DNA from: Sinohyriopsis cumingii
Taxonomy: Eukaryota > Mollusca > Bivalvia > Unionida > Unionidae
Assembly: GCA_028554795.2 (NCBI GenBank)
Contig: CM068839.1
Location: 39,957,006 to 40,021,005, forward strand
Reading direction: 5' to 3'
Length of the DNA stretch: 64,000 nucleotides
The first letter of the stretch is position 1. Every line of letters begins with the position of its first letter. Made by a program: the position numbers and the translations under genes. The notes beneath the pieces were generated by a model. That model did no database searches, had not been told where the DNA came from, and was given only the letters and a program-made list of their open reading frames with translations. Below, piece after piece: positions 4,165 through 24,200 of this stretch.

Positions 4165-4180
4165 GGCCCTGAAAAGGGCC
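4165..4180 (-). terminator. Histone-type 3' stem-loop in left TIR
   Basis: On the minus strand the sequence reads CCAAA, then GGCCCT-TTTC-AGGGCC, then C-rich bases. It has a 6-bp stem and a UUUC tetraloop like the metazoan histone mRNA hairpin. A purine block (GAAAAGAGA) follows about a dozen bases later. The hairpin lies 24 bp past the stop of the minus-strand ORF at 4205-4438. The same module in the right TIR ends the gene at 23460-23795. Confidence 0.7.
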
Positions 4181-4186
4181 TTTGGG

Positions 4187-4214
4187 TTTATGTTAATGTA
4201 TTCATTAACATAAA
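4187..4214. repeat. 12-bp perfect inverted repeat at the inner TIR edge
   Basis: TTTATGTTAATG and its exact complement are separated by TATT. The palindrome straddles the point where left-right TIR identity ends. Its role is unknown. Confidence 0.8.
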
Positions 4215-4438
4215 TGGCACCGCATTGGTCTTCTTCTTGTCCTTAGGCTGCGTCTCACTGTTGGCCCGTAAACCAGCACTCTTTTCAGGCATCCTTGCCT
4301 CTCCACGTAAATCCTACGTATCCACAGGCTGGTGTTTGTCCTGTGGACAACGGTCCACTTGGATCGGACATACATGAGCAAGTCTGTCCGAAACATCATG
4401 GAAGACACAAGGGTGGATGACTCAACTGTGGTCCACAT
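4205..4438 (-). CDS. Small basic protein of unknown function, 77 aa
   Basis: I do not recognise a family. The protein is Arg-rich toward the C-terminus and has no clear domain or membrane helix. Two features favour a real gene over a chance ORF. A TATA-like box on the same strand lies at 4481-4490, about 43 bp before the ATG, close to the 45-60 bp spacing seen for other genes of this element. A histone-type hairpin lies 24 bp after the stop, inside the TIR. It points outward, the mirror image of the outermost gene on the right. No homologue can be named. Confidence 0.45.
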   Translation of the reverse strand: MWTTVESSTLVSSMMFRTDLLMYVRSKWTVVHRTNTSLWIRRIYVERQGCLKRVLVYGPTVRRSLRTRRRPMRCHLC

Positions 4439-4480
4439 CTTGAAGCGACGAGAACAGGTGAATCAATGCACTGAACTGCG

Positions 4481-4490
4481 CTTATTTATA
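4481..4490 (-). promoter_or_regulatory. TATA box for the minus-strand 77-aa ORF
   Basis: The minus strand reads TATAAATAAG, 43 bp upstream of the ATG at 4438. The position fits the element's usual TATA-to-ATG distance. Confidence 0.45.
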
Positions 4491-4588
4491 GGTACAGGTA
4501 GGATTGAAACGGATTGAGTTCATTCACCAATCCGAACACGCGTTACGAAATTCAGTCAGCCCGCATCCATTCCGAAGAGAGCAGTCTG

Positions 4589-4610
4589 TGACGTCACGTA
4601 GTCTATATAG
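4589..4610 (+). promoter_or_regulatory. CRE-like palindrome plus TATA box upstream of the Q-rich gene
   Basis: TGACGTCA (4589-4596) is the consensus CREB/ATF palindrome. CTATATAG follows at 4603-4610, about 50 bp before the ATG at 4658. The arrangement looks like a compact RNA polymerase II promoter. Confidence 0.6.
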
Positions 4611-4657
4611 ATTGGCTAGCGCTTGTGTGCAGTCAATCTATGCGACAGTGATTCAAC

Positions 4658-5242
4658 ATGACGGAAACTCAGAAAACGATCCTTTGGGGTGCACCAACAG
4701 GGGAGACTGCCCAAGGGAACCCGGACTTACTTTCAGAAGAGGTGAATTGGGATTTTGTGGATTTTCTCTCCTCGCAAGAATTTGTTCCGGAACCTTCGTT
4801 ACCTTCTTCATTACCGCAAGTGGAGAATTTTAGACAGAGACAGAAAGAAGAATTGGAGAAATTTATACAACGACAAAAGGAAGCGGAACAAGCTTTTCTC
4901 CTACAGCAACAGCAACAAGAAGAAGAGGTAAGAAAAAAACAACAGCAACAACAGCAAGAAGAAGTAGCAGCAAAGAAACAAGAGGGTGAAAATCAAACGG
5001 TCACGGTACTGTTGGACATTTTAGCGGAGTTAAGAAGTCTGAAACAAATGTATCAGACTTCTTTATCACGACCGAAGAGAATACGACCTTCCCGAGCTAA
5101 ACACGTCAACCCTGTGACTAAGCCTACCGTACCACCCTTAGTGATTTCAACCCAATCATTATCATCATCATCAACATTACGCAGTCCAGAAGTAGGCCTT
5201 GGCCGTGGCAAAGGCATAAGGCAGTTAAAGTTGATTGCTTAA
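4658..5242 (+). CDS. Gln/Glu-rich coiled-coil protein, 194 aa
   Basis: The family is not recognised. The N-terminal 50 residues are acidic. Residues about 55-115 are a highly charged, Q-rich predicted coiled coil with two glutamine runs. A short helical region with leucine spacing (VLLDILAELRSL) follows, then a Ser/Pro-rich basic tail. The ATG at 4658 is chosen because it follows the TATA box by about 50 bp. The gene ends at a canonical histone-type hairpin (5271-5286). It resembles in build, but not obviously in sequence, the three small coiled-coil genes at the right end, which end the same way. A regulatory or scaffold role is possible but unproven. Confidence 0.75.
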   Translation: MTETQKTILWGAPTGETAQGNPDLLSEEVNWDFVDFLSSQEFVPEPSLPSSLPQVENFRQRQKEELEKFIQRQKEAEQAFLLQQQQQEEEVRKKQQQQQQEEVAAKKQEGENQTVTVLLDILAELRSLKQMYQTSLSRPKRIRPSRAKHVNPVTKPTVPPLVISTQSLSSSSTLRSPEVGLGRGKGIRQLKLIA

Positions 5243-5270
5243 ACTCACCCCTACATCATAAAGAGAAAAA

Positions 5271-5309
5271 GGCCCTTTTCAGGGCCACCCACATTTCTCG
5301 AAAAGAAAT
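5271..5309 (+). terminator. Histone-type 3' stem-loop, ACCCA and downstream element
   Basis: AAAAA is followed by GGCCCT-TTTC-AGGGCC (5271-5286), ACCCA (5287-5291) and, after ten bases, AAAAGAAAT (5301-5309). This matches the known metazoan histone 3'-end layout: an A-rich 5' flank, a 6-bp stem with UUUC loop, cleavage after ACCCA, and a purine-rich element that pairs with U7 snRNA. It starts 28 bp after the stop of the Q-rich gene. Confidence 0.85.
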
Positions 5310-5534
5310 ACAATTTCAATTTGCCAATAACTCAAAAAAACCCACCCATTTTACCCTTGTAGTACGTGGTTTTGTATGAGTGCGTGAGTGTACGTTCTTA
5401 TTTTAAAATCAAAACTAAAAGACTCTTACCTTATATCATTCATTTATTCTTTTATCCATTTTTTTACAATCCAATTCACAATTCACAACACAACACTTTA
5501 ATGAAAAGTTCATTGACTTCTTCTTTCTCCTTGT

Positions 5535-6008
5535 TTAGTCTCTCTGTTTTTTGAATTTCTTCACCGTCTTTTCCTCATTTTCTTCCCTTCTTCTTTTCTT
5601 CTTCTCCTGTTTCTTTGCCTCTTTTAAATAGAATAGTCTTTTTTCTTCCTCTTCTTCCTCTGAAGAATCCCTCTCTTCTTCCGAAGAATCCCTCTCTTCT
5701 TCTAAAGAATCCCTCTTTTCTTCTGACTCCTCTTGTTTCTTTTTTGGGCAATCTGGAGACCAATGTCCTTTTTCTTTGCAATAATAACAGGTATCTTGAC
5801 TTTTGTCTTTTTTAGTCCCTGTTTTTGTTCTTTTTTGACGGTCTGGACACTCTGAAGACCAATGCCCTTTCTTCTGACAGATATAGCAAGTATCTTGACT
5901 TTTATCTCGAAAGGAAGGAGAGTAGTCCGTAGGCTGGTCTGAAGAGAATTTTCTAATGACCCCTCGCAAAGCTCTGACGAAACGTTCCATCTGGTTAGTC
6001 TCTTCCAT
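5535..6008 (-). CDS. Double CCHC zinc-knuckle protein, 157 aa
   Basis: Two CX2CX4HX4C zinc knuckles (residues 41-54 and 74-87) are each preceded by the same DKSQDTCY stretch, so the module was duplicated. Knuckles of this type bind single-stranded nucleic acid. A strongly acidic tail with repeated RDSxEEE units, good casein-kinase-II-type sites, follows, and then a lysine-rich end. The ORF stays open back to 6056, but that first Met would sit at or before the expected transcription start set by the TATA box at 6061-6070, so the Met at 6008 (A at -3, G at +4) is preferred. AATAAA occurs on this strand at 5443-5448. The gene diverges from the polymerase and may encode a nucleic-acid-binding accessory factor; that is inferred. 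Confidence 0.75.
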   Translation of the reverse strand: MEETNQMERFVRALRGVIRKFSSDQPTDYSPSFRDKSQDTCYICQKKGHWSSECPDRQKRTKTGTKKDKSQDTCYYCKEKGHWSPDCPKKKQEESEEKRDSLEEERDSSEEERDSSEEEEEEKRLFYLKEAKKQEKKKRRREENEEKTVKKFKKQRD

Positions 6009-6060
6009 CGTTGTGCTCGGCTTGAGAGTGAAATGAATAGTGAAAGGACAAGACACACAC

Positions 6061-6095
6061 CCTTTTATATACGCTGGTCTGCTATGACTATAAAG
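6061..6095. promoter_or_regulatory. Divergent promoter with two TATA boxes
   Basis: The minus strand reads ATATAAAAGG at 6061-6070, serving the zinc-knuckle gene. The plus strand reads CTATAAAG at 6088-6095, about 48-55 bp before the polymerase ATG at 6143. The two genes therefore share about 130 bp of control DNA and are likely expressed together. Confidence 0.65.
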
Positions 6096-6142
6096 TAGCT
6101 CATGGTGTTTGAACTTGAGTCATTTGACTTTTTGCTTTCAAG

Positions 6143-9100
6143 ATGAAACGATCTAATTCATTCGAGAAGAAAGAAGAAGAAAGTAAGAGGCAGAAACGTG
6201 ATCTATCGTCTCGTACCAGGGCTGAAATCTTGGCACAAATTCATGCCAGTGATTTTGAAGAGGACATGAGTGAACCAGAATCAGAACCCTCTAAACCAAG
6301 TTCACCACCCTTAGTCAACCCTGAAAAGTACTATTCCATTCGAGAGACGGAAAAGCGCTCCTCTAGAAAATTTAGAACCACGGCTTACACCTACACAGTG
6401 AAGTTTAAAGATTTCAAGGCTGAAGTGCCGTTAGAGAAAGCAGAAGTGTTCATCACTGAGGTGTGGGATTCTTTGCTCACTGCACTCAAGCGACAATGTC
6501 ATCCCAAAGAAGACGATCGCTTGAGACTTTCCATACAACACGATGGTTTGAAATCCCCTGTTTGGATCGAATTTAGCACCCCTGCAGAATTGACTGCTTC
6601 CAAAGTCATGGACAAGATTCAACACGTACAACAATCTAATGATCAGTTTGACATCACCGATGGTAAAGCCACACTGGACATGACCCACGTCTCTCCTCCT
6701 CAAGGGACTGGACGCAAAAAGATGTTATTGGTGGACGACCTTCGCAACACCAAAAAGAGTCTCGTCCGAATTAACAACCCTCATGACCAGATGTGTTTAG
6801 CCCGTGCCATCGTGGTGGGACGAACCTATGCCAACAAGAACGACACGGTAGAATGGAAAAGAACCTGGAACACTATTCAACGTTCCGACCGAGCCAAACA
6901 ACGAAACGAAGCAGAACTCCTGTTACAACAAGCTGGACTGTCCAAAGACACACCCTGTGGCATTCCTGAGATGCAAAAATTGCAAGATGCCCTAGCTCCA
7001 CGCTACACCTTGAAAGTGCACCCTCAAGAAATGCGCGGGCCTCTGTTGTTTCGAGGCCAAGATTTTAAGGACGGAAAATACATTCACCTTTATCAACACG
7101 ATAACCATTTCGATACCATTACCAGTATCACCGGATTCCTGGGATACGGTTATAACTGTGAGAAATGTGACCATGGTTATAACAATCGAGAGCAACACAA
7201 GCATTGTGGATCGAAATGCACAGGATGTTTGGCCTCTTCACCCTGTCTGAGCGAAGAACCAGTGCCTTGTTCAACTTGTTTGCGCACGTTTGTCAGCCCT
7301 ACCTGTTACCAACAACATTTGAAGACGCAAGGTTCACAGAAAAAATGCGCTTGTCAACTCCTGAGATTGTGCTCTACGTGTGAACAAGTCATACGTACCA
7401 ATAATACCAAGGCACACGTATGTTCAGGAAAGAAAAAATGTCACATTTGTCACCACATTGTGGACTTGGAACACGAATGTTACGTGCAAAAATACCAATC
7501 CCCAACAGAGAAAGAGGACGGTCACAAGAAGAAAGGCAATTTCATCTTTTTCGATTTCGAATGCATGCAAGAGACTGGCATTTACATTCCTAATTTCTGC
7601 GTGGCTCATCGAGCGTGCGAGAAGTGCATTCAAGAACCTATCTTCAGTCATTGCCCTCATTGCAGCAAGATTCCCGGAGGGCGTGAAAAAATCTTTCGGG
7701 GACCGAACACGTTAGCCGATTTTGCCCAATGGGTCTTAGACCCCGTCGACAAGACGTGGAGCCAAGAGGACATCGAACTTTACGGAGATTGTCATCGTCA
7801 TGCCACAGTGATGGCTCACAATTTCTCCGGATACGATGGACAGTTTCTTTTGAGGTACTATACGGAACATGGCACCGAACGTCCTAAAGTCACTTTGAAC
7901 GGAGCCAAAATCATTTTCATGCAAGTGGGACAAGTGCAGTTTAAAGATTCGATGAGCTATTTGGCCATGCCTTTGAGTCGAATGCCTAAAACGTTTGGAA
8001 TGACAGAAATGGCTAAAGGGTACTTTCCACACTTTTTCAATACGGAAGCCAATCAACACGCCGTTCTACCCCATTTGCCTGAGGCTCACTATTACGACCC
8101 CGACAACATGCGTACCGAACAACGAGAAGCTTTCTACGCTTGGTACCAGATTCACGCCTCGGACCCTTTCGACTTTCAGGAAGAAATGCTAAAGTATTGT
8201 CGTTCCGACGTGGACATTTTACGGCGTTGCTGTGGAAAATTTCGAGAACTGTTCATGGAACACGGAGGGGTCGATCCTTTGAAAGAAGCTTGCACCATTG
8301 CCAAAGCGTGTTCCTTAGTGTATCGACAACGATTCATGCCTGAAAACACCGTGGCTGTCATCAGCCCTCAAACGACCCACTTTGTCAAACGTCAATACTC
8401 GGTCAAAGCCCTACGCTGGTTACATTACTTGTGCGACAAGGAAGACAAGTGGATTCAGCATGCCCGCAACGGAGGGGGCGAAAAGACCATCGGAACGTAT
8501 TCGGTCGATGGCTGGGACTTAGAAAACCCCAAGATCGTGTACGAGTTTAACGGTTGCTTATTTCACGGATGTCCTGTTTGTTACCCTGACCGTGGTACTA
8601 AAAATCAGTTTTTGCAACGAACCATGGAAGACTTGTACCAGGACACTTGTCAGCGACGCCTAAAGTTAGAACAGCAAGGATACCAAGTGGTGGAAATGTG
8701 GGAACACGAGTACGATCACCGTATGAAAACCGATCCCGAGTTTAAACGCCTCGTGGAAAGTTACCAGTTCATGGACCCGCTGAACCCGAGGGATAGTTTG
8801 TACGGAGGAAGGACCAATGCCACCTGTTTGCTGTACCAAGCCGACGAAGAGAAAGGAGAAGAAATCAAATACTTGGACGTGTGTTCGCTGTATCCCTACG
8901 TGTGCAAATATTGTCGCTTTCCTGTAGGGCACCCGCAATTGCTGACGGAACACATCGACCTGAAAAACATTCGACAATACGAAGGCTTGATCAAGTGCAA
9001 AGTTTTGCCTCCCACGAACCTATACCATCCCGTCTTACCTCACCATTGTCAAGGCAAACTGATGTTTCCCTTGTGCCGTACTTGTGCCGAAACGTGCAAC

Positions 9101-10180
9101 CAAGACCAAGCTTGTCAGCACAGCCAGGAAGAACGGGCCTTGACGGGAACCTGGGTCAGCGTAGAATTGTTCAAAGCTCTGGACATGGGATACCAACTGT
9201 TAGAAGTTTACGAAATTTGCCACTTTCCCAAGACACAACAATATCGCAAGGGTGACCCTACTCAGAAAGGCATTTTCGCCGACTACGTGGATGCCTTTTT
9301 GAAACTGAAGCAAGAAGCCAGCGGCTATCCTTCCTGGTGTCACACTCCCGAAGACCAAATAAAATTCAAAGAGAAATACTACGAACAAGAAGGCATCACT
9401 TTAGACCACATCGAGAAAAACGAAGGCAGGCGATCGTTTGCCAAAGTGATGTTAAATTGCTTGTGGGGTAAAATGGCACAACGACCGTGTTTACCCAAGA
9501 CGGAATATTTGACAGAACCTTCCCGCTACTTCCAGATGATTCACGACAAAACCAAATACATGAAACACGTGGACGTCGTTCAAGAGAATTTGATCTTGGT
9601 CAATTACGAAGAAGATCTGGACTTTGTACAAGACGACCCTTTTGGAAATGTCATCATTGCGGCTTACGTGACAGCTCATGCTCGCTTAAAATTGTACGAA
9701 GCTTTAGAACTGTTAGGGGAATGCGTCCTGTACTTTGACACGGACAGTTGCATTTACATCCATCACCCGATTCAACATCACCCTGACATCGAAGGAGACC
9801 GTTTAGGAGCCTGGACAGACGAGCATCCCGACGACAAGATTCTAAGTTTCGTCAGTGGTGGTCCCAAAAATTACGGCTACGAATACCGTGACAAACAAGG
9901 AGAAGTGCACACGACGTGCAAAGTGAAAGGACTGACTCTGAATTATCGTACCAGTCGAGTGGTCAACTTTGGCGTATTGAAAGAAGCCTTGCAATCGGGA
10001 GAGGATGGAAACTTTAAAGTGACCACCTATCAACCGAACAAGATTGTACGTTTACCCACTCATCACATCGTCAGTCGACCCTTGGAAAAAGTCTATCAAA
10101 TTGTATACCAAAAGCGAATTCGACTTCCCAATCATTTCACCTTACCGTATGGACACGTTGGTATAAAACATTGGTTGTAA
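6143..10180 (+). CDS. PolB: Protein-primed family B DNA polymerase, 1345 aa
   Basis: This enzyme replicates linear Polinton DNA from a protein primer. Exonuclease motifs: FFDFE with D471/E473, NFSGYD at 560-565, YCRSD at 685-689. Polymerase motifs: DVCSLYP at 912-918, the KVMLNCLWGK motif at about 1101-1110, and DTDS with D1199 and D1201. A Cys/His-rich zinc-finger-like block fills about residues 338-445. Between the exonuclease and palm lies a segment with D789, E801, FHGCPVCY and MWEHE near 852. This segment recurs in Polinton polymerases and looks like a restriction-endonuclease-type insertion; the fold is inferred. The N-terminal 300 residues are unassigned. All catalytic residues checked are present and the ORF is uninterrupted, so the enzyme looks functional. 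Confidence 0.97.
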   Translation: MKRSNSFEKKEEESKRQKRDLSSRTRAEILAQIHASDFEEDMSEPESEPSKPSSPPLVNPEKYYSIRETEKRSSRKFRTTAYTYTVKFKDFKAEVPLEKAEVFITEVWDSLLTALKRQCHPKEDDRLRLSIQHDGLKSPVWIEFSTPAELTASKVMDKIQHVQQSNDQFDITDGKATLDMTHVSPPQGTGRKKMLLVDDLRNTKKSLVRINNPHDQMCLARAIVVGRTYANKNDTVEWKRTWNTIQRSDRAKQRNEAELLLQQAGLSKDTPCGIPEMQKLQDALAPRYTLKVHPQEMRGPLLFRGQDFKDGKYIHLYQHDNHFDTITSITGFLGYGYNCEKCDHGYNNREQHKHCGSKCTGCLASSPCLSEEPVPCSTCLRTFVSPTCYQQHLKTQGSQKKCACQLLRLCSTCEQVIRTNNTKAHVCSGKKKCHICHHIVDLEHECYVQKYQSPTEKEDGHKKKGNFIFFDFECMQETGIYIPNFCVAHRACEKCIQEPIFSHCPHCSKIPGGREKIFRGPNTLADFAQWVLDPVDKTWSQEDIELYGDCHRHATVMAHNFSGYDGQFLLRYYTEHGTERPKVTLNGAKIIFMQVGQVQFKDSMSYLAMPLSRMPKTFGMTEMAKGYFPHFFNTEANQHAVLPHLPEAHYYDPDNMRTEQREAFYAWYQIHASDPFDFQEEMLKYCRSDVDILRRCCGKFRELFMEHGGVDPLKEACTIAKACSLVYRQRFMPENTVAVISPQTTHFVKRQYSVKALRWLHYLCDKEDKWIQHARNGGGEKTIGTYSVDGWDLENPKIVYEFNGCLFHGCPVCYPDRGTKNQFLQRTMEDLYQDTCQRRLKLEQQGYQVVEMWEHEYDHRMKTDPEFKRLVESYQFMDPLNPRDSLYGGRTNATCLLYQADEEKGEEIKYLDVCSLYPYVCKYCRFPVGHPQLLTEHIDLKNIRQYEGLIKCKVLPPTNLYHPVLPHHCQGKLMFPLCRTCAETCNQDQACQHSQEERALTGTWVSVELFKALDMGYQLLEVYEICHFPKTQQYRKGDPTQKGIFADYVDAFLKLKQEASGYPSWCHTPEDQIKFKEKYYEQEGITLDHIEKNEGRRSFAKVMLNCLWGKMAQRPCLPKTEYLTEPSRYFQMIHDKTKYMKHVDVVQENLILVNYEEDLDFVQDDPFGNVIIAAYVTAHARLKLYEALELLGECVLYFDTDSCIYIHHPIQHHPDIEGDRLGAWTDEHPDDKILSFVSGGPKNYGYEYRDKQGEVHTTCKVKGLTLNYRTSRVVNFGVLKEALQSGEDGNFKVTTYQPNKIVRLPTHHIVSRPLEKVYQIVYQKRIRLPNHFTLPYGHVGIKHWL

Positions 10181-10204
10181 GAGGATAGTTACCCCACTAG
10201 AAAG

Positions 10205-10663
10205 ATGACTTCGCCACAGCAAGAATCGAGTGAGAAACCCGATGAGAACTCCAAGTTCAAACCCTACCATTTTCCAGTCTTCTTACCTGACTATTGTCAT
10301 TGTGCCCGTCGATTGGACACGTTTCAGAAATGGCCTACGGATAGGGAAGGATTACCTTCTTCACATGTTTTAGCTAGAACAGGATTTGTCTACTTGGGAC
10401 CTGAGTCAGGATTGGGATACGAGGTACAGTGTTTCGCTTGCGGACTGAAGTTACGAATGGATCTATGTATCTATAAAGATTCAGCTATTCTGGAACATAC
10501 TCGATGGTCTCCGCACTGCCCTTACCTTTCTATGGCCTTTCCACCCATCACACTACGGTACAATGTTGACGGTACCTTAGAGACGGTACCTTCCAGAACA
10601 GGACATAAAAAACGTAAAAAAGGAAAGATGTACAAGCTGGAGACTGCATTGAGACTAGTATAA
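10205..10663 (+). CDS. BIR-domain (IAP-like) protein, 152 aa
   Basis: A single BIR domain spans about residues 24-108: an RLDTFQKW start, ARTGFVYLG in the middle, then zinc ligands C76, C79, H98 and C105. The C-to-H spacing is 18 instead of the usual 16, and the usual Trp after CG is not evident. BIR domains bind caspases or IAP antagonists, so an anti-apoptotic or immune-modulating role is plausible. There is no RING finger. The tail is short and lysine-rich. It lies 24 bp after the polymerase stop, and its own stop codon is embedded in the TATA box of the next gene. It is one of two BIR genes, probably paralogues captured from a host IAP. Confidence 0.88.
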   Translation: MTSPQQESSEKPDENSKFKPYHFPVFLPDYCHCARRLDTFQKWPTDREGLPSSHVLARTGFVYLGPESGLGYEVQCFACGLKLRMDLCIYKDSAILEHTRWSPHCPYLSMAFPPITLRYNVDGTLETVPSRTGHKKRKKGKMYKLETALRLV

Positions 10664-10667
10664 AAAA
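10659..10667 (+). promoter_or_regulatory. TATA box overlapping the stop codon of the first BIR gene
   Basis: TATAAAAAA contains the TAA stop of the upstream gene (10661-10663). It lies about 55-60 bp before the ATG of the second BIR gene (10722). The same overlap occurs at 14983 and, more weakly, at 15430. Confidence 0.6.
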
Positions 10668-10721
10668 GGGCTATGGTCAAGATCGATAGTTCATTGTGAC
10701 TACCAAGACCGAGCGAACAAG

Positions 10722-17059: not shown

Positions 17060-17239
17060 CAACGTGTCACCAAAAAAGAAGACGACGTGTACGACATCGA
17101 AAGCATTCTCGAACGCAGAACCCGTAAAGTGGGCAAACGACGTGTCAAAGAAGTCAAAGTACGTTGGAAAGGATATCCACCCAGTTTCGATTCTTGGATC
17201 GACGCTTCGCAAGTCATCGACTATAAAAAGAAGAAGTGA
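17060..17239 (+). pseudogene. Chromodomain of the integrase, downstream of the in-frame TGA
   Basis: Continues the integrase frame with no ATG of its own. It reads as a chromodomain: DDVYDIESILERR, then VKVRWKGYP and SFDSWIDASQV, ending in Lys-rich residues at a TGA (17237-17239). Chromodomains bind methylated histone tails and target integration to chromatin. It is expressible only by stop readthrough, splicing or reversion; otherwise it is a disabled fragment. Confidence 0.85.
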
Positions 17240-17244
17240 CCATC

Positions 17245-17655
17245 ATGCCCTTTCACACAGCAGACGCAGCTACGTCGACCAGTCCTTCTTCACCTAGTTC
17301 TTCTGTGCAAGATTTACAAAAACAACCCTTGTGGGTGTGGTGTGGAGAACGTGTGCCTAAAACGCAAATCGTCTTTTTCTGCCAAATCTTCGTGGTGTAT
17401 TGTGTCATCGGGGCAGCCATCGCCAATTTGAGTTTGCAACAAGAAGACAAACAATTGTGGACCATTTTATTGAGCAGTTTCATCGGTTACCTGCTTCCTA
17501 ATCCCTCCCTGAAATTCTCCTCGAACGGGAACGTTGTGTCCAGCGCCAGTGTCAGTCACCACTCCAACAACCACAATCAGAACCCCATTTTAGACGGAGA
17601 CACGCCTCTGACGTCCACTAACCCCTCGGACAGCCACAGAACTCTGGAATTATGA
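17245..17655 (+). CDS. Conserved Polinton two-helix membrane protein, 136 aa
   Basis: The first ATG after the chromodomain is at 17245. Residues about 41-63 (TQIVFFCQIFVVYCVIGAAI) and 73-88 (WTILLSSFIGYLLP) form two hydrophobic segments separated by a short polar loop. The flanks are Ser/Thr/Asn-rich. Proteins with this WxxLLSSxxGYxLP pattern commonly sit between integrase and minor capsid genes in Polintons; their function is unassigned as far as I know. The stop overlaps the minor capsid start (ATGA), which implies coupled expression. CTATAAAAAG at 17221 may be its TATA box, though the spacing is short. Confidence 0.75.
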   Translation: MPFHTADAATSTSPSSPSSSVQDLQKQPLWVWCGERVPKTQIVFFCQIFVVYCVIGAAIANLSLQQEDKQLWTILLSSFIGYLLPNPSLKFSSNGNVVSSASVSHHSNNHNQNPILDGDTPLTSTNPSDSHRTLEL

Positions 17656-18626
17656 GTCACCAAAACCAATTTTACTTAACTTTACCCAGTGACAGTTCCA
17701 TGGAGGTGTTTCCCAACAACACGTTGTGCTGTTACACGGCCAAATTACCTCAAGCCATCCCGTTAGATCACGAAGCCCATTGGGAAGTGGCTTTAGTAGA
17801 AATGATTCACCCAACACAAATCCAAAACATCACTGAAACTCAGAACACTTTTTACGTCGAAATTTTGGACCCAGCACTGCAGCAAAAGATGACGGGCAGT
17901 CCTCAACATAACTCACATTCTGCAAAGGAGCTATTATCCCGCAGCAGTGACTCTTCTTCTTCTCCTCCTCCTCCTCCTCTTTTCGTTTATCACTTTAAAA
18001 TTAACCCAGGCCATTATTTTAGTGGTCAACATCTGGTGGAAGCCATCGCTGACAAATTCTATGCAACCTTTGACAAAGTTCTGACCAATGCAAAAAAACG
18101 TGTCACCGTCGAGTACCACAAACAGTCTCACCGTCTACTCATCAGATTTGAAAGTGATGAAAAAAGTATACGTATTAAATTTTGCCCTGGATTGTATGAC
18201 ATTTTGGGTGGAGACCTCAAAATGGTCATGGATAAGGACACCAAAAAGATTAAAATGGCAGAGATTGACAACGACGGGCATTTTGCAAGGTATTTTCGTT
18301 ACCCGGTAGAACTGAACGAAGGACTGAATTTGATCTTCGTGTACTCCGATGTGGTGGAGTACAACGTGGTGGGACACACCTCCGTACCGTTACTACGTGT
18401 CATTCCTTTCAAAGTAAATTCTGCCACGGCCACTGACGAGGAAGGTAGAAACACTTACCACATTCACCGCGAATTTGTCCATCCTCACTATTTGCCCGTC
18501 AGCAAGTCTTATTTGGACACGGTCAACATTGCTATAAAAGGAGATCTGGGACAAAATATTCCATTCACCAAAGGAAAAGTCACGGTGAAACTCCATTTTC
18601 GAAAACGGTTCTCTCACGACTCGTAA
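17652..18626 (+). CDS. mCP: Minor capsid (penton) protein, 324 aa
   Basis: The N-terminal pattern FYLTLPSDSSMEVFPNNT, followed by WEVALVEMIHPTQIQNI, is characteristic of the Polinton minor capsid protein, a single jelly-roll that forms the icosahedral vertices. A low-complexity Ser/Pro insertion occurs near residues 95-115. The C-terminus contains the usual LNEGLNLIFVYSDVVEYNVVG segment. The length is normal for the family. The start overlaps the preceding stop by four bases (ATGA). No damage is seen. Confidence 0.92.
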   Translation: MSHQNQFYLTLPSDSSMEVFPNNTLCCYTAKLPQAIPLDHEAHWEVALVEMIHPTQIQNITETQNTFYVEILDPALQQKMTGSPQHNSHSAKELLSRSSDSSSSPPPPPLFVYHFKINPGHYFSGQHLVEAIADKFYATFDKVLTNAKKRVTVEYHKQSHRLLIRFESDEKSIRIKFCPGLYDILGGDLKMVMDKDTKKIKMAEIDNDGHFARYFRYPVELNEGLNLIFVYSDVVEYNVVGHTSVPLLRVIPFKVNSATATDEEGRNTYHIHREFVHPHYLPVSKSYLDTVNIAIKGDLGQNIPFTKGKVTVKLHFRKRFSHDS

Positions 18627-18633
18627 GTAAGTC

Positions 18634-19050
18634 ATGTATCCAGTGTACCGAGGGGTTGCTCGACAGCGAGGACACGGTTTAGGAGACATGTTAAAATCGG
18701 CCTTTCGTTCGGTGGCTCCGGTGTTGAAACCGATGGTGACACGCGGATTGCACGCCTTGAAAGATGCGGCACTGACGCAAGGCAAAGAATTTCTCCAAAA
18801 TGTCATCATCGACAAACAAAACCCTAAAGAAGCCTTCATGAGGGCAGGCAAAAATGTCTTGCTGCAAACGGGCAAAGACATTTTGGGCCGACGAGACACA
18901 CCTATAAATGCCCTGCACGCTACCGAGTCTGGCATTCAGCAAGGACAAGGCAGAAAGAGACGACGAAGAAAACACCCTTTCACCAGACTTCAAGCTAGAA
19001 AGGTCAAGAAAAGAAGAACCGTTCGAGACTTAGACGTTTTCGATTATTGA
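18634..19050 (+). CDS. Basic virion protein, adenovirus pVI-like by position and composition, 138 aa
   Basis: Starts eight bases after the minor capsid gene. Residues about 10-60 form a Gly-initiated amphipathic helix pattern (GLGDMLKSAFRSVAPVL and following). The C-terminus is very basic (RKRRRRKH, KVKKRR), like a DNA-binding or nuclear-localisation tail. Small proteins at this position in Polintons and adintoviruses are considered relatives of the adenovirus membrane-lytic cement protein; here that rests on position and composition. It is probably cleaved by the element's protease. Confidence 0.7.
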   Translation: MYPVYRGVARQRGHGLGDMLKSAFRSVAPVLKPMVTRGLHALKDAALTQGKEFLQNVIIDKQNPKEAFMRAGKNVLLQTGKDILGRRDTPINALHATESGIQQGQGRKRRRRKHPFTRLQARKVKKRRTVRDLDVFDY

Positions 19051-19063
19051 AACACAGAGAAAA

Positions 19064-20383
19064 ATGATGCACCGAGAGTCTTGCGCTTGTTCCAAGACGG
19101 AACTGGATCTGTTTGCCATGCCCCCCACCATGATGACCATGCAAGAATCCCAGTGGGTGGAATTTCACCCGGTCTCCTCATTGACCGATTCCGCTCCCAT
19201 CGAGTTCGAAATCAAAGGACAGCCCGAAGATTACATCGATCTGAATAGCAGTTACCTGTACTTGAAAGTCAAAGTAACCGAAGCGAACAACGGTTCCATA
19301 GACAATGATGATGTAGTAGCTCCCGTCAATAATTTCATGCATTCCTTGTTTAGCGAAGTGGACTTGTACTTGAATAACAAACTGGTCAGCAGCAGCATGG
19401 ATACTTACCCTTACCGAGCGTACCTGGAAAATCTCTTGACGTACGGAAAAGAAGCCAAGAACACTCATCTGGATGCTTGCGTGGTATGGAAACCTGACAA
19501 AGCGACTAAGTTCAACGGCGTTGTACTTGCTGGGGATACTTCAAATTCAACGGGATTTGTAGAACGACGAGCGAAAACTCATCTAAGTCGTAGTTTAGAA
19601 CTGATGGATCGCTTGCATTTGGACATGTGGTTACAAGAAAAGTATTTGCTGAACGGGGTGGATGTCCGCCTGAGACTGAATCGCAGCAGTGCCGCTTTGC
19701 ATTTGATGGCTGCAGAAAATTCCACTTACAAAACCGTCATCCAAGAAGCCAGGCTCTACGTACGTCGCGTGGAAGTGTTACCTAAAGTAGGTAACGACAT
19801 CAGTCAGACGTTGAGCAGAACGACCGCCAAGTATCCGATACGACGCGTAGAAGTGAAAACCTTCACCATTCCTGCTGGACAGCGATCCATGATCCAAGAT
19901 CATCTGTTCCAAGGACAGTTACCCAAACGTTTGATTGTTGGTATCGTCAAGAATTCAGCCTTCAACGGAGCCTACAAGGAAAATCCTTTTGAGTTTCAAC
20001 ATTACAATGTGTCCAAGATTGAAGTCAGTCGCGATGGCAAGACTTTGTGTACCCGACCCTTTGAGCCTAAGTTTGCTGACAGAAATTACTTGAGATCGTA
20101 CTTGTCCCTGTACGAAGCCACCGGACAGTTAGGAACCAACACCAGTCACGGCATTACGTACGAGGATTATGCAGGAGGCTATGCTTTGTGGGCTTTCGAT
20201 TTCACTCCAGACCAAGGCAGCGACGAGGGACATTTCCACCCTATAAAATCTGGCCAGATTCGTGTGGAAATTCAGTTTGCGAGTCCACTGGAAGCAGATA
20301 ACACAGTGAACGTCATCCTGTATGCAGAATTTGATAATACCATAGAAATCAACAGTTTGAGAGAAGTCATTCTAGATTACTAG
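19064..20383 (+). CDS. MCP: Major capsid protein, double jelly-roll, 439 aa
   Basis: The opening TELDLFAMPPTM (residues 12-23), SAPIEFEI and EDYIDLNSSYLYL are typical of the Polinton double-jelly-roll major capsid protein that forms the capsid lattice. Further family segments (FMHSLFSEVDLYLNNK; YRAYLENLLTYG; the GYALWAFDFTPD region) occur in the expected order. Length and frame are intact. It lies between the pVI-like gene and a Cys/His gene. Its presence with ATPase, penton and protease genes shows the element encodes a complete virion assembly set. Confidence 0.95.
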   Translation: MMHRESCACSKTELDLFAMPPTMMTMQESQWVEFHPVSSLTDSAPIEFEIKGQPEDYIDLNSSYLYLKVKVTEANNGSIDNDDVVAPVNNFMHSLFSEVDLYLNNKLVSSSMDTYPYRAYLENLLTYGKEAKNTHLDACVVWKPDKATKFNGVVLAGDTSNSTGFVERRAKTHLSRSLELMDRLHLDMWLQEKYLLNGVDVRLRLNRSSAALHLMAAENSTYKTVIQEARLYVRRVEVLPKVGNDISQTLSRTTAKYPIRRVEVKTFTIPAGQRSMIQDHLFQGQLPKRLIVGIVKNSAFNGAYKENPFEFQHYNVSKIEVSRDGKTLCTRPFEPKFADRNYLRSYLSLYEATGQLGTNTSHGITYEDYAGGYALWAFDFTPDQGSDEGHFHPIKSGQIRVEIQFASPLEADNTVNVILYAEFDNTIEINSLREVILDY

Positions 20384-20388
20384 AAGTC

Positions 20389-20874
20389 ATGGAAGACTGT
20401 TATCCCTCTTTACCTAGTGGAGAAACTTTGGACATGGAATGTAAGGAGATTGTAGAAAAAGAAGAAGTGATCATGATGAAGTCAAGATGGCCAGAACAAG
20501 AAGCCCATTTAGTCTCCTGTTTTGCCAAACACTTGGTCGACAAAATGACGGAATTGATCAAGAAAAATTGCTATGGATGTCAAAACGATCATCCCAGTCA
20601 AATTCAACACGATAAATGCCTAATGTTAAGTCAAGAAGAAAAATTGGACGAGTATCTGGACGAAGCTTGGAGTCTCATCTCGAACAAAGACGTGTTGCAC
20701 CAGTGGTATAAAGACTTGCGTGAACATTCTTGTCCACCATTAACCACTCAAGAGATCCATCGTATCGAAGCTCTCCTGAATCAGAGTGAGGAAACAGAAC
20801 GAATAACCGTTTATTCGTCAGACATTTTTAAGCAAAAAGTCAGGATCGAATTGACAACTTATTATTACCTGTGA
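20389..20874 (+). CDS. Cys/His-motif protein of unknown function, 161 aa
   Basis: Begins five bases after the MCP stop. The centre holds CYGCQNDHPSQIQHDKCLM, a CxxC-H-H-C arrangement near residues 62-80 that could bind zinc. Similar motifs recur next to capsid genes in Polintons, but no function is known to me. The flanks are acidic and helical. It is probably co-expressed with the capsid genes. Confidence 0.7.
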   Translation: MEDCYPSLPSGETLDMECKEIVEKEEVIMMKSRWPEQEAHLVSCFAKHLVDKMTELIKKNCYGCQNDHPSQIQHDKCLMLSQEEKLDEYLDEAWSLISNKDVLHQWYKDLREHSCPPLTTQEIHRIEALLNQSEETERITVYSSDIFKQKVRIELTTYYYL

Positions 20875-20892
20875 AGAAGAAAACACAAAACA

Positions 20893-21453
20893 ATGGATAC
20901 CTGGGAACTTTATTACCTTTTGAACCACAGTTCGTATACGTCTTCTTGGAATCCTGTCGTCTGTGCTAAAGATGAACTCCCTCATCGCAAACCTAAAGAC
21001 CATCAAGCTTACGTGATCAACACGGACGACAGTCATCTCCCAGGAACCCACTGGGTAGCCGTCTACTTTCCTCAAGAAGGATGTGTGGAATATTTCGATT
21101 CGTACGGATTGCCCCCTTTGGAAGACGATATCATCGACTTTATGAGAAGAAATGCTCAAACCACCCGATTCAATAATGTGAAATTACAAGGCACAGATTC
21201 CTTGGTGTGTGGACAGTACTGTGTGTATTTTCTGCATCATCGCAGCCTGGGCTATTCCTTAGAACATTTAGTGACTCATTTCGATCCTCGTTCTTCTGCT
21301 AGAAACGATGTGAAAGTAGATCGATGGTTTTGTGACCATTATGCTTATCTTTTGTCTCAAGCTAGGAAACGTAGTGTCCATCAATGGCCTAATGATTTCC
21401 AACAGTGGAAATCACAATTTCATTCACAACGTTGTCAGCCCTGTTCTAAGTAG
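20893..21453 (+). CDS. PRO: Adenain-like cysteine protease, 186 aa
   Basis: The catalytic layout matches the adenovirus protease/Ulp1 fold: H53 in GTHWVAVYF, D69 in EYFDSYG, Q99 as probable oxyanion-hole residue, and C106 in LVCGQYC. The enzyme processes virion precursor proteins during capsid maturation. Length is close to other Polinton proteases. The frame is intact and starts 18 bases after the Cys/His gene. The likely poly(A) signal for the capsid block is at 21568. Confidence 0.92.
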   Translation: MDTWELYYLLNHSSYTSSWNPVVCAKDELPHRKPKDHQAYVINTDDSHLPGTHWVAVYFPQEGCVEYFDSYGLPPLEDDIIDFMRRNAQTTRFNNVKLQGTDSLVCGQYCVYFLHHRSLGYSLEHLVTHFDPRSSARNDVKVDRWFCDHYAYLLSQARKRSVHQWPNDFQQWKSQFHSQRCQPCSK

Positions 21454-21567
21454 ATTGTTAATTGAGAAAAAAATGTTTGTGATTAGAAAAAAATGTTTGA
21501 TGTTATAGTGTTATATTATTGTTAAAAAATGTTAGAGTTGTTCTTGTTTAGTGTTAAGTGATTTTTG

Positions 21568-21573
21568 AATAAA
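21568..21573 (+). terminator. AATAAA polyadenylation signal after the protease
   Basis: AATAAA lies about 115 bp past the protease stop and is followed by a GT-rich stretch. The DNA between is A+T-rich with repeated AAAAAAATGTTTG-like words and has no ORF. Confidence 0.6.
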
Positions 21574-21690
21574 AAATGTTGTGTTTTGAAAAAATGCTTT
21601 TGTCTTTTGTTTAGCTATAAGAATGTTGGATTGATGCTCTTTCATTTCTTACTATCCCTCTCATGAACGTTGCGGCTCGAAAAACCGTGT

Positions 21691-21730
21691 GGGGATGTTT
21701 TCCTTCACGTCCGCGCTTTGACTTTAAGAA
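21691..21730 (+). promoter_or_regulatory. Shared promoter cassette, copy A
   Basis: GGGGATGTTTTCCTTCACGT is followed by CCGCGCTTT and a degenerate TATA (CTTTAAG). The ATG at 21782 lies about 60 bp downstream. The same cassette precedes the next two genes. Confidence 0.7.
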
Positions 21731-21781
21731 CCGGTTTGTTCCCAGTCTAACCATCCATTGTCGACTCATCCTCCTACGAAG

Positions 21782-22150
21782 ATGTGCTCCAAACTAGCTA
21801 AGCTCAACGAAGCCTACGTGAATTTGCATAGGGTCAGACACAGTCTGATACCGAAGCCAGAAGAAATAGAGAATGTGAGAATGTTAAAAATCACTGAAGA
21901 CCTGATAGAAGAGCTCTTCAGAGAAGAAATGAACAGGGAGAAAGAAGAATGGACAGAGAAGTACAGACTTCAGAGACAGCAGCAACAGCAGCAACAACAG
22001 CAACAACAACAACAGCAGCAGCAACCTGAAGCTGACAGAGGCTTTGTCGATTGCCGTATCGACACCAAAGAGTTCTTCTTCTCTTTCCGAAGAAGCAGAC
22101 CTATCGCCAGAAAGTCTATCCTCAGAGGACATCGCATTCTTAGAAACTAA
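21782..22150 (+). CDS. Small coiled-coil protein with poly-Q, 122 aa
   Basis: The first ATG after the cassette is 21782; the frame is open upstream but without ATG. The N-terminus (KLAKLNEAYVNLHRVRHSL) resembles the next gene's KLLELHVHLEYARRML in heptad spacing, so the two are probably paralogues. An acidic/basic coiled coil leads into a run of 16 glutamines encoded by mixed CAG/CAA codons (21974-22021), then a Ser/Arg-rich tail. No family is recognised. It ends at a histone-type hairpin at 22179. Confidence 0.7.
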   Translation: MCSKLAKLNEAYVNLHRVRHSLIPKPEEIENVRMLKITEDLIEELFREEMNREKEEWTEKYRLQRQQQQQQQQQQQQQQQQPEADRGFVDCRIDTKEFFFSFRRSRPIARKSILRGHRILRN

Positions 22151-22178
22151 AAAAGAATGCCATAGCAAACAAAAAAAC

Positions 22179-22217
22179 AGCCCTTTTCAGGGCTACCCAA
22201 TACTCTAGAAAAGAAAT
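22179..22217 (+). terminator. Histone-type 3' stem-loop, second copy
   Basis: AAAAAAC is followed by AGCCCT-TTTC-AGGGCT (22179-22194), ACCCA (22195-22199) and GAAAAGAAAT (22208-22217). AATAAA follows at 22259 as a possible backup poly(A) site, an arrangement also known from metazoan histone genes. It starts 29 bp past the stop of the preceding gene. Confidence 0.85.
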
Positions 22218-22565
22218 AACGATCAATTTGCCAATGTGTGTAGGTAGAGTAGTGTGAAAATAAACACTAACTCTTTTTCAAAAAAAATGTGAGGGTATGT
22301 GTTTGTGTATAGGATTGTGTGTTTGTAAGTGATAAAGTAGGTTGGTGTGGATAGTAGATTAAAATGATGTCTTTTTTGGTGTTTGAGGTGTATATTTGGG
22401 GTTAGATTGGATTGATTTGCTTATGTGGATAGTCTATTGAAGTGATTTATAAAAAATTTTACAATAGTGATGGGTAGCATAAAAAAGTGAGTGAGTGTTT
22501 CTTTTAGGTCCGCGCGTTGTTGTTTTTTTGGTCATGATCTAGGTAAGATGAGTTTTATGTTTTTA

Positions 22566-22605
22566 GGGGATGTTTTCCTTCACGTCCGCGCTTTCAGTAT
22601 AAATT
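22566..22605 (+). promoter_or_regulatory. Shared promoter cassette, copy B
   Basis: Same 29-bp core as copy A, followed by AGTATAAATTG, a good TATA box about 55 bp before the ATG at 22656. The spacer from about 22220 holds the duplicated post-hairpin segment and G/T-rich low-complexity DNA with no ORF. Confidence 0.75.
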
Positions 22606-22655
22606 GAAACTCGTTCGGCAGTCCAGCTACCCTTGTTGATTGATCAACACCAAAA

Positions 22656-23024
22656 ATGAACACGAGACTGGAGAAACTGTTGGAACTTCATGTGCATCTG
22701 GAATATGCCAGGCGCATGTTAAATGAACTGGCCGCGGAAGCCATTGTCGAGGAGGGAAGGATAAGAGAGGAGGAAAGAAGAAACAAAGAAGAGGAGGAGA
22801 GAAGATATAAAGAAGAAGAGGAAAGAAGATACAAAGAGGAGGAGAGAAGATACAAAGAAGAGGAGGAGGAAAAGGAGAGAAGAAAAAATTTCAGAATCCC
22901 AGAGAGCGAAAATTGGGATTCTGAAGCGACATATCCTGCCTCTGCTCTCTCCCCCCAAAAGGTAAAAAGTAACTGGGGGATAAGATGTGTATGTGGCGCC
23001 AGGCCTGGAAGGTGCCACCATTAA
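22656..23024 (+). CDS. Small Arg/Glu coiled-coil protein, 122 aa
   Basis: Starts at the first ATG after the cassette (AAAAATGAAC). The N-terminal 30 residues have leucine heptads similar to the upstream paralogue. Residues about 40-80 are four near-repeats of RRYKEEE, a highly charged single helix. The C-terminus (CVCGARPGRCHH) has three cysteines and paired histidines. Function is unknown. It ends at the histone-type hairpin at 23054. Confidence 0.7.
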   Translation: MNTRLEKLLELHVHLEYARRMLNELAAEAIVEEGRIREEERRNKEEEERRYKEEEERRYKEEERRYKEEEEEKERRKNFRIPESENWDSEATYPASALSPQKVKSNWGIRCVCGARPGRCHH

Positions 23025-23053
23025 CCAGGTGTCCATGAAGTTCCAAACAAAAC

Positions 23054-23091
23054 AGCCCTTTTCAGGGCTACCCAATACTCTAGAAAAGAAA
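23054..23091 (+). terminator. Histone-type 3' stem-loop, third copy
   Basis: AAAAC is followed by AGCCCT-TTTC-AGGGCT (23054-23069), ACCCA (23070-23074) and TAGAAAAGAAATA from about 23081. AATAAA follows at 23134. It is nearly identical to the copy at 22179 for about 100 bp. Confidence 0.85.
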
Positions 23092-23303
23092 TAATGATCG
23101 ATTTGCCAATGTGTGTAGGTAGAGTAGTGTGAAAATAAACACTAACTCTTTATTAATAGTGGAAGTGTATGTGTTTGTGTTTGTGTTTGTGTTTGTAAAT
23201 GCTGAAGTAAGTTTGTGTGAATAGTAGATTATGGGTTTATTTATTGATTCTTAGCGTATGTAGAGAGTATAGTTGTGGTTATATTATATGAAATGAGAAA
23301 GTA

Positions 23304-23410
23304 GGGGATGTTTTCCTTCACGTACGCGCGATGTTCGGTCATGATCTAGGTAAGATCAATTTTATGTTATTAGGGGATGTTTTCCTTCACGTCCGCGCTT
23401 TCACTATAAG
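23304..23410 (+). promoter_or_regulatory. Shared promoter cassette, copy C, preceded by a partial copy
   Basis: A partial copy of the core (23304-23330) with CACGTACGCGCG is followed by GGTCATGATCTAGGTAAGAT and then the full core at 23373 with CACTATAAGAACC as TATA region. The ATG at 23460 is about 55 bp downstream of TATA. The doubled core may raise or tune activity. Confidence 0.7.
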
Positions 23411-23459
23411 AACCCACAGTGTTCGTTGTTCAAACCATTCTGCAAAGAATAAAAAGAAG

Positions 23460-23795
23460 ATGGCGTCAAACCAAATGGACAAAATACAAACCTTGCAAGA
23501 CGTTTTAGACAACTTAGGAATAATGGAACAGATGCTAATAAGACTCGTTGAAGACCATTATTCCTATAGTCCCCATCGTGTAAAGATGGAAATTAATAAC
23601 TTAAGAAAAGCAAAGGACAAGATTAGTGGTGTAATGAAAGAGATAAAGGAGGAGAAGGAGGATGAAGAGGAAAGAATAAGAATACGCAAATGGAACGAAA
23701 AAATTGAAAAAGAAGAAGAAAATGAAAAGAGGAAGAAAGAAGAGAAGAAGAAAGAAGAGGAGGAGAAGAAAAAAAGAAAGGGAAGAAGAGTGTAG
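23460..23795 (+). CDS. Small Lys/Glu coiled-coil protein, 111 aa
   Basis: Start chosen at 23460 (AAGATGG), after the TATA box; the open frame back to 23331 runs through promoter DNA. Residues 1-50 hold Leu/Ile heptads. Residues 55-111 are an almost uninterrupted Lys/Glu helix ending in KKKRKGRR, a likely nuclear-localisation signal. No family is recognised. It is the outermost right-end gene, and its hairpin lies inside the right TIR. Confidence 0.7.
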   Translation: MASNQMDKIQTLQDVLDNLGIMEQMLIRLVEDHYSYSPHRVKMEINNLRKAKDKISGVMKEIKEEKEDEEERIRIRKWNEKIEKEEENEKRKKEEKKKEEEEKKKRKGRRV

Positions 23796-23842
23796 GAGAT
23801 AAAATAAGAACTTGGTGGAGAAAAGAAGAAATTAGAAGAAGA

Positions 23843-24200
23843 AAACCCAAAGGCCCTTTTCAGGGCCCCCATATTTCTCGAAAAGAGATAGCCTTTGAAT
23901 TGCCTACCCCTTTTTAAAATTTAAAAAAAAATCCCATGTTAAATTCCCCTTGTACGTAAAGTGACCCACGATTTATTCCCATGTTAAATTCCCCTTGTAC
24001 GTATAGTATCCCACGATTTATTCCCATGTTAATTCCCCTTGTACGTATATGTTCCCACGATTTATTCCCATGTTAATTCCCCTTGTACGTATATGTTCCC
24101 ACGATTTTTCGCCATGTTAAATTTCCATTGTACGTATATGTTCCCAAGGGGGTCTGTAATGCTAATTCCCATTGTACGTAAAGTATCCCCCTTCACTACT
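23843..24200 (-). repeat. Right terminal inverted repeat
   Basis: Reverse complement of 3831-4189, 358 bp, ending in CT at the CACAGA duplication. It carries the mirrored 44-bp repeat array and, at its inner edge, the histone-type hairpin that ends the last gene. Confidence 0.97.
23852..23889 (+). terminator. Histone-type 3' stem-loop in right TIR
   Basis: CCAAA is followed by GGCCCT-TTTC-AGGGCC (23852-23867), CCCCA in place of ACCCA, and CTCGAAAAGAGAT from about 23877. The 5' flank CCAAA is the full histone consensus. The hairpin starts 57 bp past the stop at 23795. Confidence 0.8.

Follow-up and report, generated by a model that had tools for sequence, protein, structure and literature searches.

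Here, we describe a Polinton element in the bivalve Sinohyriopsis cumingii, in which five small genes near the element's ends are each followed by a 3′ end module of the histone messenger RNA (mRNA) type. The element lies in a window of 64,000 nucleotides (nt), the whole stretch of DNA that was analysed (GenBank assembly GCA_028554795.2, contig CM068839.1, positions 39,957,006 to 40,021,005 of the forward strand). The five genes are referred to as g77 and g194 at the left end and g122a, g122b and g154 at the right end. In animals, this type of 3′ end is considered nearly exclusive to histone genes. Judged from the sequence, it is likely that all five modules function as histone-type 3′ ends by way of the host stem-loop-binding protein (SLBP) and U7 small nuclear RNA (snRNA), that three of the genes have a histone-type promoter as well, and that expression is coupled to S phase; the small genes of the Polinton would probably run on the DNA-replication timetable of the cell.

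Each module consists of a 16-nt hairpin, in sense orientation to its gene and with the loop UUUC in all five cases, followed by a block resembling the histone downstream element (HDE), in which GAAAAGA begins 12–13 nt past the hairpin (table 1). An initial annotation of the window had pointed to these hairpins, and their positions and strands are all confirmed, together with the ACCCA 3′ flank of three copies (5271, 22179 and 23054), the CCAAA 5′ flank of the two copies in the terminal inverted repeats (TIRs), the purine block some 10–15 bases downstream and an AATAAA further on in two hairpin genes (22259 and 23134). Its range of 24–57 bp past the stop of a small gene holds for all five, the measured distances being 24, 28, 28, 29 and 56 nt. 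The hairpins at 22179 and 23054 have an A–U basal pair instead of G–C, and those in the TIRs (4165 and 23852) are followed by CCCCTA and CCCATA in place of ACCCA. A 34-residue open reading frame (ORF; g34, 4188–4292) overlaps g77, ends at the same hairpin and is an alternative to it.

In a 21-kb scan with the Rfam family Histone3 (RF00032; gathering score 34 bits), the check proposed by the initial annotation, all five hairpins are matched, one above the cut-off at 41.2 bits (E 3.2e-9) and the others at 33.0–31.0 bits (E 3.8e-6 to 2.1e-5). Histone3 is absent, up to E = 10, from positions 24,700–64,000 (39 kb beyond the element's right end); bases 1–3,499 were scanned at the gathering score only. 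The combination of hairpin and block occurs five times in the window, compared with a maximum of zero in 100 dinucleotide shuffles, and the five occurrences of CT[AC]GAAAAGA in the 64 kb all lie 3′ of hairpins. That the Histone3 matches are hairpin noise of AT-rich DNA was rejected on the basis of the shuffles and the match-free stretch at the right. When 22 ORFs were checked, a hairpin was found within 160 nt past the stop in six (the five genes and g34) and in none of the remaining 16. AATAAA lies within this distance in two of the 16 hairpin-free ORFs, the protease gene (21568) and a zinc-knuckle gene (5443, minus strand), and a further AATAAA at 13160 follows ORF 12797–13147, which is outside the 22-ORF check. 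The earlier statement that the replication and virion gene blocks show AATAAA instead holds at the ends of the blocks and not elsewhere; these genes appear to use ordinary ends.

Table 1. Features of the Polinton and of the host histone repeat. Positions are those of the window unless a locus is given.
Feature	Position	Strand	Remarks
Polinton element	3831..24200 (~20.4 kb)	.	TIRs and 6-bp target-site duplication CACAGA
Left TIR	3831..4189	+	contains hairpin module 4141-4185 (minus)
HDE-like block CTCGAAAAGA	4146..4155	-	
Histone-type hairpin GGCCCU UUUC AGGGCC	4165..4180	-	24 nt past g77 stop; Histone3 31.4 bits
g77	4205..4438	-	reads outward into left TIR hairpin
Divergent g77/g194 promoter	4439..4657	.	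TGACGTCA at 4589-4596, CCAAT, TATA; conserved in copies
g194	4658..5242	+	N-terminal block conserved (NWDFVDFLSSQEF); C-terminal block basic (PKRxRPSRAK)
Histone-type hairpin, ACCCA 3′ flank	5271..5286	+	28 nt past g194 stop; Histone3 41.2 bits
HDE-like block CTCGAAAAGA	5297..5306	+	
Second downstream block, CAATTTGCCA or CGATTTGCCA	5317-5326, 22224-22233, 23099-23108		
PolB	6143-10180		DNA_pol_B_2 5e-42
Two BIR proteins	10205-11459		
A32-type ATPase	13236-14987		Pox_A32 6e-7
Retroviral-type integrase (rve)	16127-17059		rve 7e-15
Major capsid protein	19064-20383		F54H12.2-like relatives
C5-like protease	20893-21453		weak: Peptidase_C5 E 0.0084, 16.3 bits, below cut-off 21.3
AATAAA after protease gene	21568..21573	+	end of hairpin-free virion block
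Histone-promoter block GATGTTTTCCTTCACGTCCGCGC before g122a	21694..21716	+	with next T, 23/24 identical to host H2B
g122a	21782..22150	+	Q/E-rich; small; promoter block and 3′ end both histone-type
Histone-type hairpin AGCCCU UUUC AGGGCU, ACCCA 3′ flank	22179..22194	+	28 nt past g122a stop; 31.0 bits
HDE-like block CTAGAAAAGA	22205..22214	+	same as block of host H3, H4, H2B
21-mer TTTCTTTTAGGTCCGCGCGTT	22498..22518	+	same as host H4 promoter
Histone-promoter block before g122b	22569..22591	+	then TATAAA
g122b	22656..23024	+	C-terminal CVCGARPGRCHH
Histone-type hairpin AGCCCU UUUC AGGGCU, ACCCA 3′ flank	23054..23069	+	29 nt past g122b stop; 33.0 bits
HDE-like block CTAGAAAAGA	23080..23089	+	same as block of host H3, H4, H2B
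Distal histone-promoter block before g154	23307..23329	+	ACGCGC variant
Proximal histone-promoter block before g154	23376..23398	+	then TATAA
g154	23461..23795	+	right-end gene, K/E-rich
Right TIR	23843..24200	-	contains hairpin module 23847-23891 (plus)
Histone-type hairpin in right TIR	23852..23867	+	56 nt past g154 stop; Histone3 32.2 bits
HDE-like block CTCGAAAAGA	23877..23886	+	
Promoter blocks of host histone genes, H2B/H1 and H4 types	L039:2201, 3030, 6429		

The histone genes of the host were located by searching the genome (2.9 Gb in 1,138 contigs) with PF00125, for which 150 of 662 candidates were scored; they lie in tandem repeats of ~8.27–8.29 kb. In the repeats that were read (loci L039–L042), H3, H4, H2B and H2A end in GGCCCT-TTT(T/C/A)-AGGGCC and H1 ends in GGTCCT-TTTC-AGGACC, with the hairpins 27–38 nt past the stop. 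The block that follows is CTAGAAAAGA in H3, H4, H2B and H1 and CCCGAAAAGG in H2A, and GAAAAG[A/G] begins 13–14 nt past the host hairpins, as against 12–13 nt in the Polinton. Complete host hairpins reach 35.0–39.4 bits in Rfam, lower than the best Polinton module. Because hairpin and block are of the kind seen in the host genes, at nearly equal spacing, the Polinton modules have the form of histone 3′ end used by this host, and the histone-type 3′ processing put forward by the initial annotation is well supported at the sequence level. A second block, about 30 nt past the hairpin, is common to host H2A (CAATTTTGCCA, L039:4520–4530) and the Polinton (CAATTTGCCA or CGATTTGCCA). This similarity past the HDE suggests capture, and the module may descend from an H2A-like gene. 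One histone repeat, L042, is interrupted at 1504–4464 by an ORF of 986 residues, which from its start we take to be probably a protein of the long interspersed nuclear element type.

The initial annotation would have been refuted if all related elements lacked the hairpins; within this genome that refutation fails, as the modules recur in diverged copies. In a genome-wide Histone3 search, 75 of 589,472 candidates were scored and all 75 exceeded the cut-off, while one of 14 prokaryote control genomes gave a match and none a match over the cut-off. Thirty-five of the 75 loci were fetched (the best eight, the weakest six, the one above those and 20 along the list between). A Polinton gene of the window is matched in 29 (tblastn) and the TIR in the other six (blastn, 71–88% identity in the longest matches); no histone gene is among the best three families listed for each of the 35 loci. 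A search for near-copies, with the g194 end as query and 40 of 1,337 candidates scored, provided 30 near-identical copies, of which 28 carry a second hairpin outside the query (26 exact, two with a U–G pair). The two copies lacking such a match are L046, in which the hairpin has decayed, and L050. A metagenomic relative of g194 (P0131) has a gene prediction that, in its source, extends into ISGPPTSLEKRYYVNCQ, similar to the in-frame reading of the window's hairpin and block (FSGPPTFLEKKYNFNLP); g194 is thus probably followed by the module in a second lineage too, although with an altered hairpin.

Conservation was measured on an alignment of the window ends with diverged copies, using from each copy only the hairpin that had not selected its locus. 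At the g194 ends (n = 6), mean pairwise identity is 0.967 in the hairpin, 0.956 in the block and 0.833 in the linker, compared with 0.816 in the upstream flank, which is mostly coding, and 0.829 downstream. The g122 ends (n = 8, two of them from the window) give 0.984, 0.908 and 0.804 for hairpin, block and linker, and 0.584 and 0.763 for the upstream and downstream flanks. The decayed hairpins of L002 and L004 are outside both sets, which makes the hairpin identities somewhat too high. Hairpins are more conserved than their flanks in diverged copies. A bias from selecting loci on their Histone3 score is countered by the use of non-selecting hairpins and by ten loci chosen by promoter, described below. 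Stem covariation was assessed on 28 hairpins, 25 of them distinct (five from the host, five from the window and 18 others picked among intact ones, with L002, L004 and L046 excluded). Of the stem cells, 98.0% are paired, compared with 94.8% in shuffles; the basal pair is G–C in 16 hairpins, A–U in six and unpaired in three, and the third pair is C–G in 23, U–A in one (host H1) and U–G in one. The covariation score and the number of both-side cells are greater than in all 500 shuffles, with kinship left in the count. Variation in the stem mostly preserves pairing.

The resemblance to histone genes extends to the promoters. The block GATGTTTTCC[A/T]TCACGTCCGCGC is found upstream of host H2B and H1 (one mismatch) and of three Polinton genes. 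It precedes TATA-like boxes as GATGTTTTCCATCACGTCCGCGCT in host H2B and as GGGATGTTTTCAATCACGTCCGCGCT in host H1; the Polinton form is GGGGATGTTTTCCTTCACGTCCGCGCT, with block starts at 21694, 22569 and 23376 and a variant at 23307. The Polinton block stands 84–88 nt before the ATG of g122a, g122b and g154; at two of these genes, TATAA comes next. Identity between Polinton and host promoters is 23/24 for H2B, 24/26 for H1 and 21/21 for H4. Scanning the whole window with up to six mismatches locates the block at five places, all inside the element and four of them with 0–1 mismatch; the same scan of five first-order shuffles gives 0, 0, 1, 0 and 0. The word GTCCGCGC occurs four times in the element, always before g122a, g122b or g154; the host repeat has three copies of it, and the 39.8 kb to the right of the element none. 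The core TCACGTCCGCGC resembles a binding site of the histone H4 transcription factor HINFP (CAACGTCCGCGG / GGTCCG), a motif for which no paper was found; ACGTCCGCGC and GGTCCGCGC are present as candidate sites of this type.

In other copies, the block lies upstream of right-end genes at nine of the 35 fetched Histone3 loci, the other 26 being centred on other hairpins, short or without a match at four mismatches. For the exact 23-mer of host H2B, the genome has 6,101 occurrences, a count that includes the host arrays, versus zero for the reversed control. Ten of the sites listed, all on contig C1, were sampled without regard to the hairpin. All ten precede Polinton right-end genes (blastn 75–96%, plus ORF), and a hairpin with at most one mismatch lies downstream at eight; at one of the others it would fall beyond the fetched stretch and at one it is lost. 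The left end has a promoter of its own kind, in which the palindrome TGACGTCA, mostly with a TATATAG-like box, is retained in 10 of 12 copies scanned (L002, L007, L073, L074, L076, L078, L079, L084, L091 and L097). This palindrome is absent from the host histone repeat, and the left-end and host histone promoters have only short words in common.

The small genes g194, g122b and g154 are under purifying selection. The median ratio of nonsynonymous to synonymous substitution rates (dN/dS) is 0.32 for g194 (89 pairs of intact frames, dS > 0.05), 0.24 for g122b (10 pairs, median dS 0.77) and 0.31 for g154 (four pairs only). For g77, 80–91% identity over 59–77 residues is found in 11 loci among the matches listed. 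In an alignment of g194 (A3), the block NWDFVDFL..QEF is conserved and a basic one, PKRKRPSRAK, is present, and g194 has no Pfam match at E ≤ 0.1; from its sequence we infer a small nuclear regulator. The protein of g122b shares with two listed relatives (P0141 and P0142) a common C-terminus, CVCGARPGRC(H/Q)H, possibly metal-binding, and the middle is highly variable. The start of g154 is most likely at 23461; the ORF list has 23331.

These features can be combined in a mechanism, which we infer from sequence with respect to SLBP and U7 binding, the cut site, the missing poly(A), promoter activity and S-phase timing. In the pre-mRNA of each small gene, SLBP would bind the hairpin and U7 snRNA the GAAAAGA block. 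Cleavage would take place a few nucleotides past the hairpin, after ACCCA in the copies that have it, and the mRNA would not be polyadenylated. At the other end, g122a, g122b and g154 would start from the host histone-type block GATGTTTTCC[A/T]TCACGTCCGCGC, followed by a TATA-like box, so that the histone cassette would have been copied at both of its ends. Expression would be coupled to S phase, when deoxynucleoside triphosphates and replication factors could serve a DNA element with its own polymerase; the S-phase idea gains support because histone-like promoter blocks stand at three of the five genes. A bolder version, which we hold only tentatively and with slightly more doubt than belief, is that the family copies a complete histone cassette of promoter block, short intronless gene and SLBP/U7-type 3′ end, its early genes being drawn into the machinery of the histone locus and giving tailless mRNAs only in S phase. 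With promoter copies that probably number in the thousands, the elements may even compete with histone genes for these factors.

Several observations weigh against the proposed S-phase-coupled ends. Four of the five hairpins score slightly under the Rfam gathering score, and a scan of the whole window at that score returns only 5266–5310; the TIR copies in this element lack the A of ACCCA. In the module at 5271 and in both TIR modules, the block can fold back on itself to form a small hairpin, which was not seen in H3, the one host gene folded, and which might hinder pairing with U7. An Rfam U7 search of the genome gave three matches only, the best at 29.3 bits (E 0.27); it also matches in 12 of 14 prokaryote controls, so that weak matches mean little, and the three places were judged to be chance rather than the host U7. 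AATAAA follows about 108 nt past the stop of two hairpin genes, g122a (22259–22264) and g122b (23134–23139), both on the plus strand, and is a possible back-up poly(A) signal. The left-end genes g77 and g194 use another promoter, and the promoter matches have modest blastn E values of 1e-4 (H4), 4e-4 (H2B) and 0.007 (H1) in a comparison of one 8.3-kb repeat with 64 kb, in which two low-complexity matches also reach E 0.007. Hairpins are decayed or lost in some copies (L002, L004, L046 and L111). As for covariation, pairs changed on both sides (n = 2, one of them stemming from host H1) are matched by 36 of 500 shuffles and further pair types by 478 of 500. Relatives of the capsid protein in bacterial assemblies, likely host contamination, led to four partial contigs of distant Polintons from other hosts, in which neither Histone3 at E ≤ 1 nor the promoter block at four mismatches was found; histone-type ends may well not be general among Polintons.

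Some of these points would be accommodated if the hairpins had a dual mode, mainly stabilizing transcripts or standing in for polyadenylation while cells divide; AATAAA would then serve in other situations, and the coupling to S phase would be weak. The AATAAA signals of g122a and g122b and the left-end genes without a histone promoter block fit such an arrangement, and overlapping poly(A) signals have been described for human histone genes (PMC9756948). Three of the five modules, however, have no AATAAA or ATTAAA on the sense strand within 160 nt past the stop, and we regard a dual mode as unlikely. It is highly improbable that the modules are idle remnants captured from the ends of host histone genes. 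In a multi-copy element whose young copies are nearly identical, passengers of any kind would be copied along, and the hairpin has decayed in some copies; yet each of the five modules lies at the end of a gene, in sense and at histone distance, they are conserved above their flanks in diverged copies with pairing mostly kept through changes, and matching promoter blocks are present at three of the genes too.

A role at the level of DNA, in which the hairpins would be signals for replication, packaging or integration in or near the TIRs, can draw on the two hairpins at the inner edge of a TIR, given that the ends of Polintons are generally expected to carry replication and integration signals. 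The three other hairpins are internal, all five lie downstream of a gene and in sense, and loop, flanks and block follow the host histone module without obvious reason for DNA signals to do so, which leaves this role extremely improbable. The direction of transfer might also be reversed, with the promoter block originally belonging to the Polinton and acquired by the host histone promoters, as the 6,101 copies of the 23-mer and the ten of ten sampled sites in Polintons might suggest. Within one host repeat, however, the block differs in form between H2B, H1 and H4 and is differently flanked in each, which gives it the look of a long-standing host element. Reverse transfer would require more than one independent acquisition, and we think it improbable.

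The element itself is a Polinton/Maverick, with a type B DNA polymerase, an rve integrase, an FtsK/A32-type ATPase, a capsid gene, TIRs and a 6-bp duplication. The TIR arms are 99% complementary over 3831–4124/23907–24200 and 96% over 4101–4189/23843–23931. Among 120 of 1,100 capsid relatives listed, the animals named are bivalves (Mercenaria, Crassostrea, Ostrea and Saccostrea), and one relative is a symbiont assembly; F54H12.2-like entries are presumably Polinton capsid genes. The viral_contigs collection had no match for the hairpin patterns, the PolB relatives or the capsid relatives. A PHROGs search with seven element proteins gave the connector phrog_332 against the Q/E-rich g122a (E 4e-5) and phrog_9180, of unknown function (E 0.007); both matches are weak and were dropped as homology. 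The two BIR-domain genes, of the inhibitor-of-apoptosis type, lie between PolB and the ATPase gene. Two ORFs outside the element, at 43795–46299 and 49093–49905 (minus), are HAD-like, and the first combines its HAD-like hydrolase domain with one of a GMC oxidoreductase. Intronless fusions of this kind seem unusual for an animal and may have a foreign source or have arisen by retro-copying.

If true, the proposed coupling would represent a novel means by which a transposon or virus links its genes to S phase, and standard poly(A)-selected RNA sequencing would miss such transcripts. The module of the element and that of the host share one genome, which makes the claim directly testable.

The initial annotation knew of no description of such ends in Polintons. 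By titles and the starts of abstracts among the papers listed, none deals with histone-type 3′ ends or histone promoters in Polintons; PMC12220804, however, counts six histone 3′ untranslated region stem-loops in its collection of Polinton-like virus and virophage genomes, named there as the same RNA family, in related elements. In the section concerned, these six form a list entry without discussion, as a count without positions, genes, host comparison or interpretation. According to PMC9756948, the AAA before the stem is part of the SLBP site, ACCCA is the tail of the processed mRNA and the HDE pairs with U7. With the replication-dependent histone mRNA 3′ end (RF00032; SLBP and the U7 small nuclear ribonucleoprotein), the Polinton modules share the 6-bp stem, the UUUC loop, AAA or AAC before the stem, ACCCA in three copies, the HDE-like block at 12–13 nt and a distance of 24–56 nt from the stop. 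They differ in belonging to non-histone genes of a mobile element, in the possible self-pairing of three blocks and in CCC for ACC in the TIR copies. Like the promoters of host H2B, H1 and H4, those of the Polinton have GATGTTTTCC[A/T]TCACGTCCGCGC or TTTCTTTTAGGTCCGCGCGTT before a TATA-like box; unlike in the host, the block precedes small Polinton genes and is often doubled in the element. PolB, an A32-type ATPase, an rve integrase, a capsid protein, TIRs and a 6-bp duplication are shared with Polintons/Mavericks and adintoviruses, and what sets this element apart from those described, going by titles and abstract starts, is a set of small end genes with histone-type 3′ ends and, in part, histone-type promoters.

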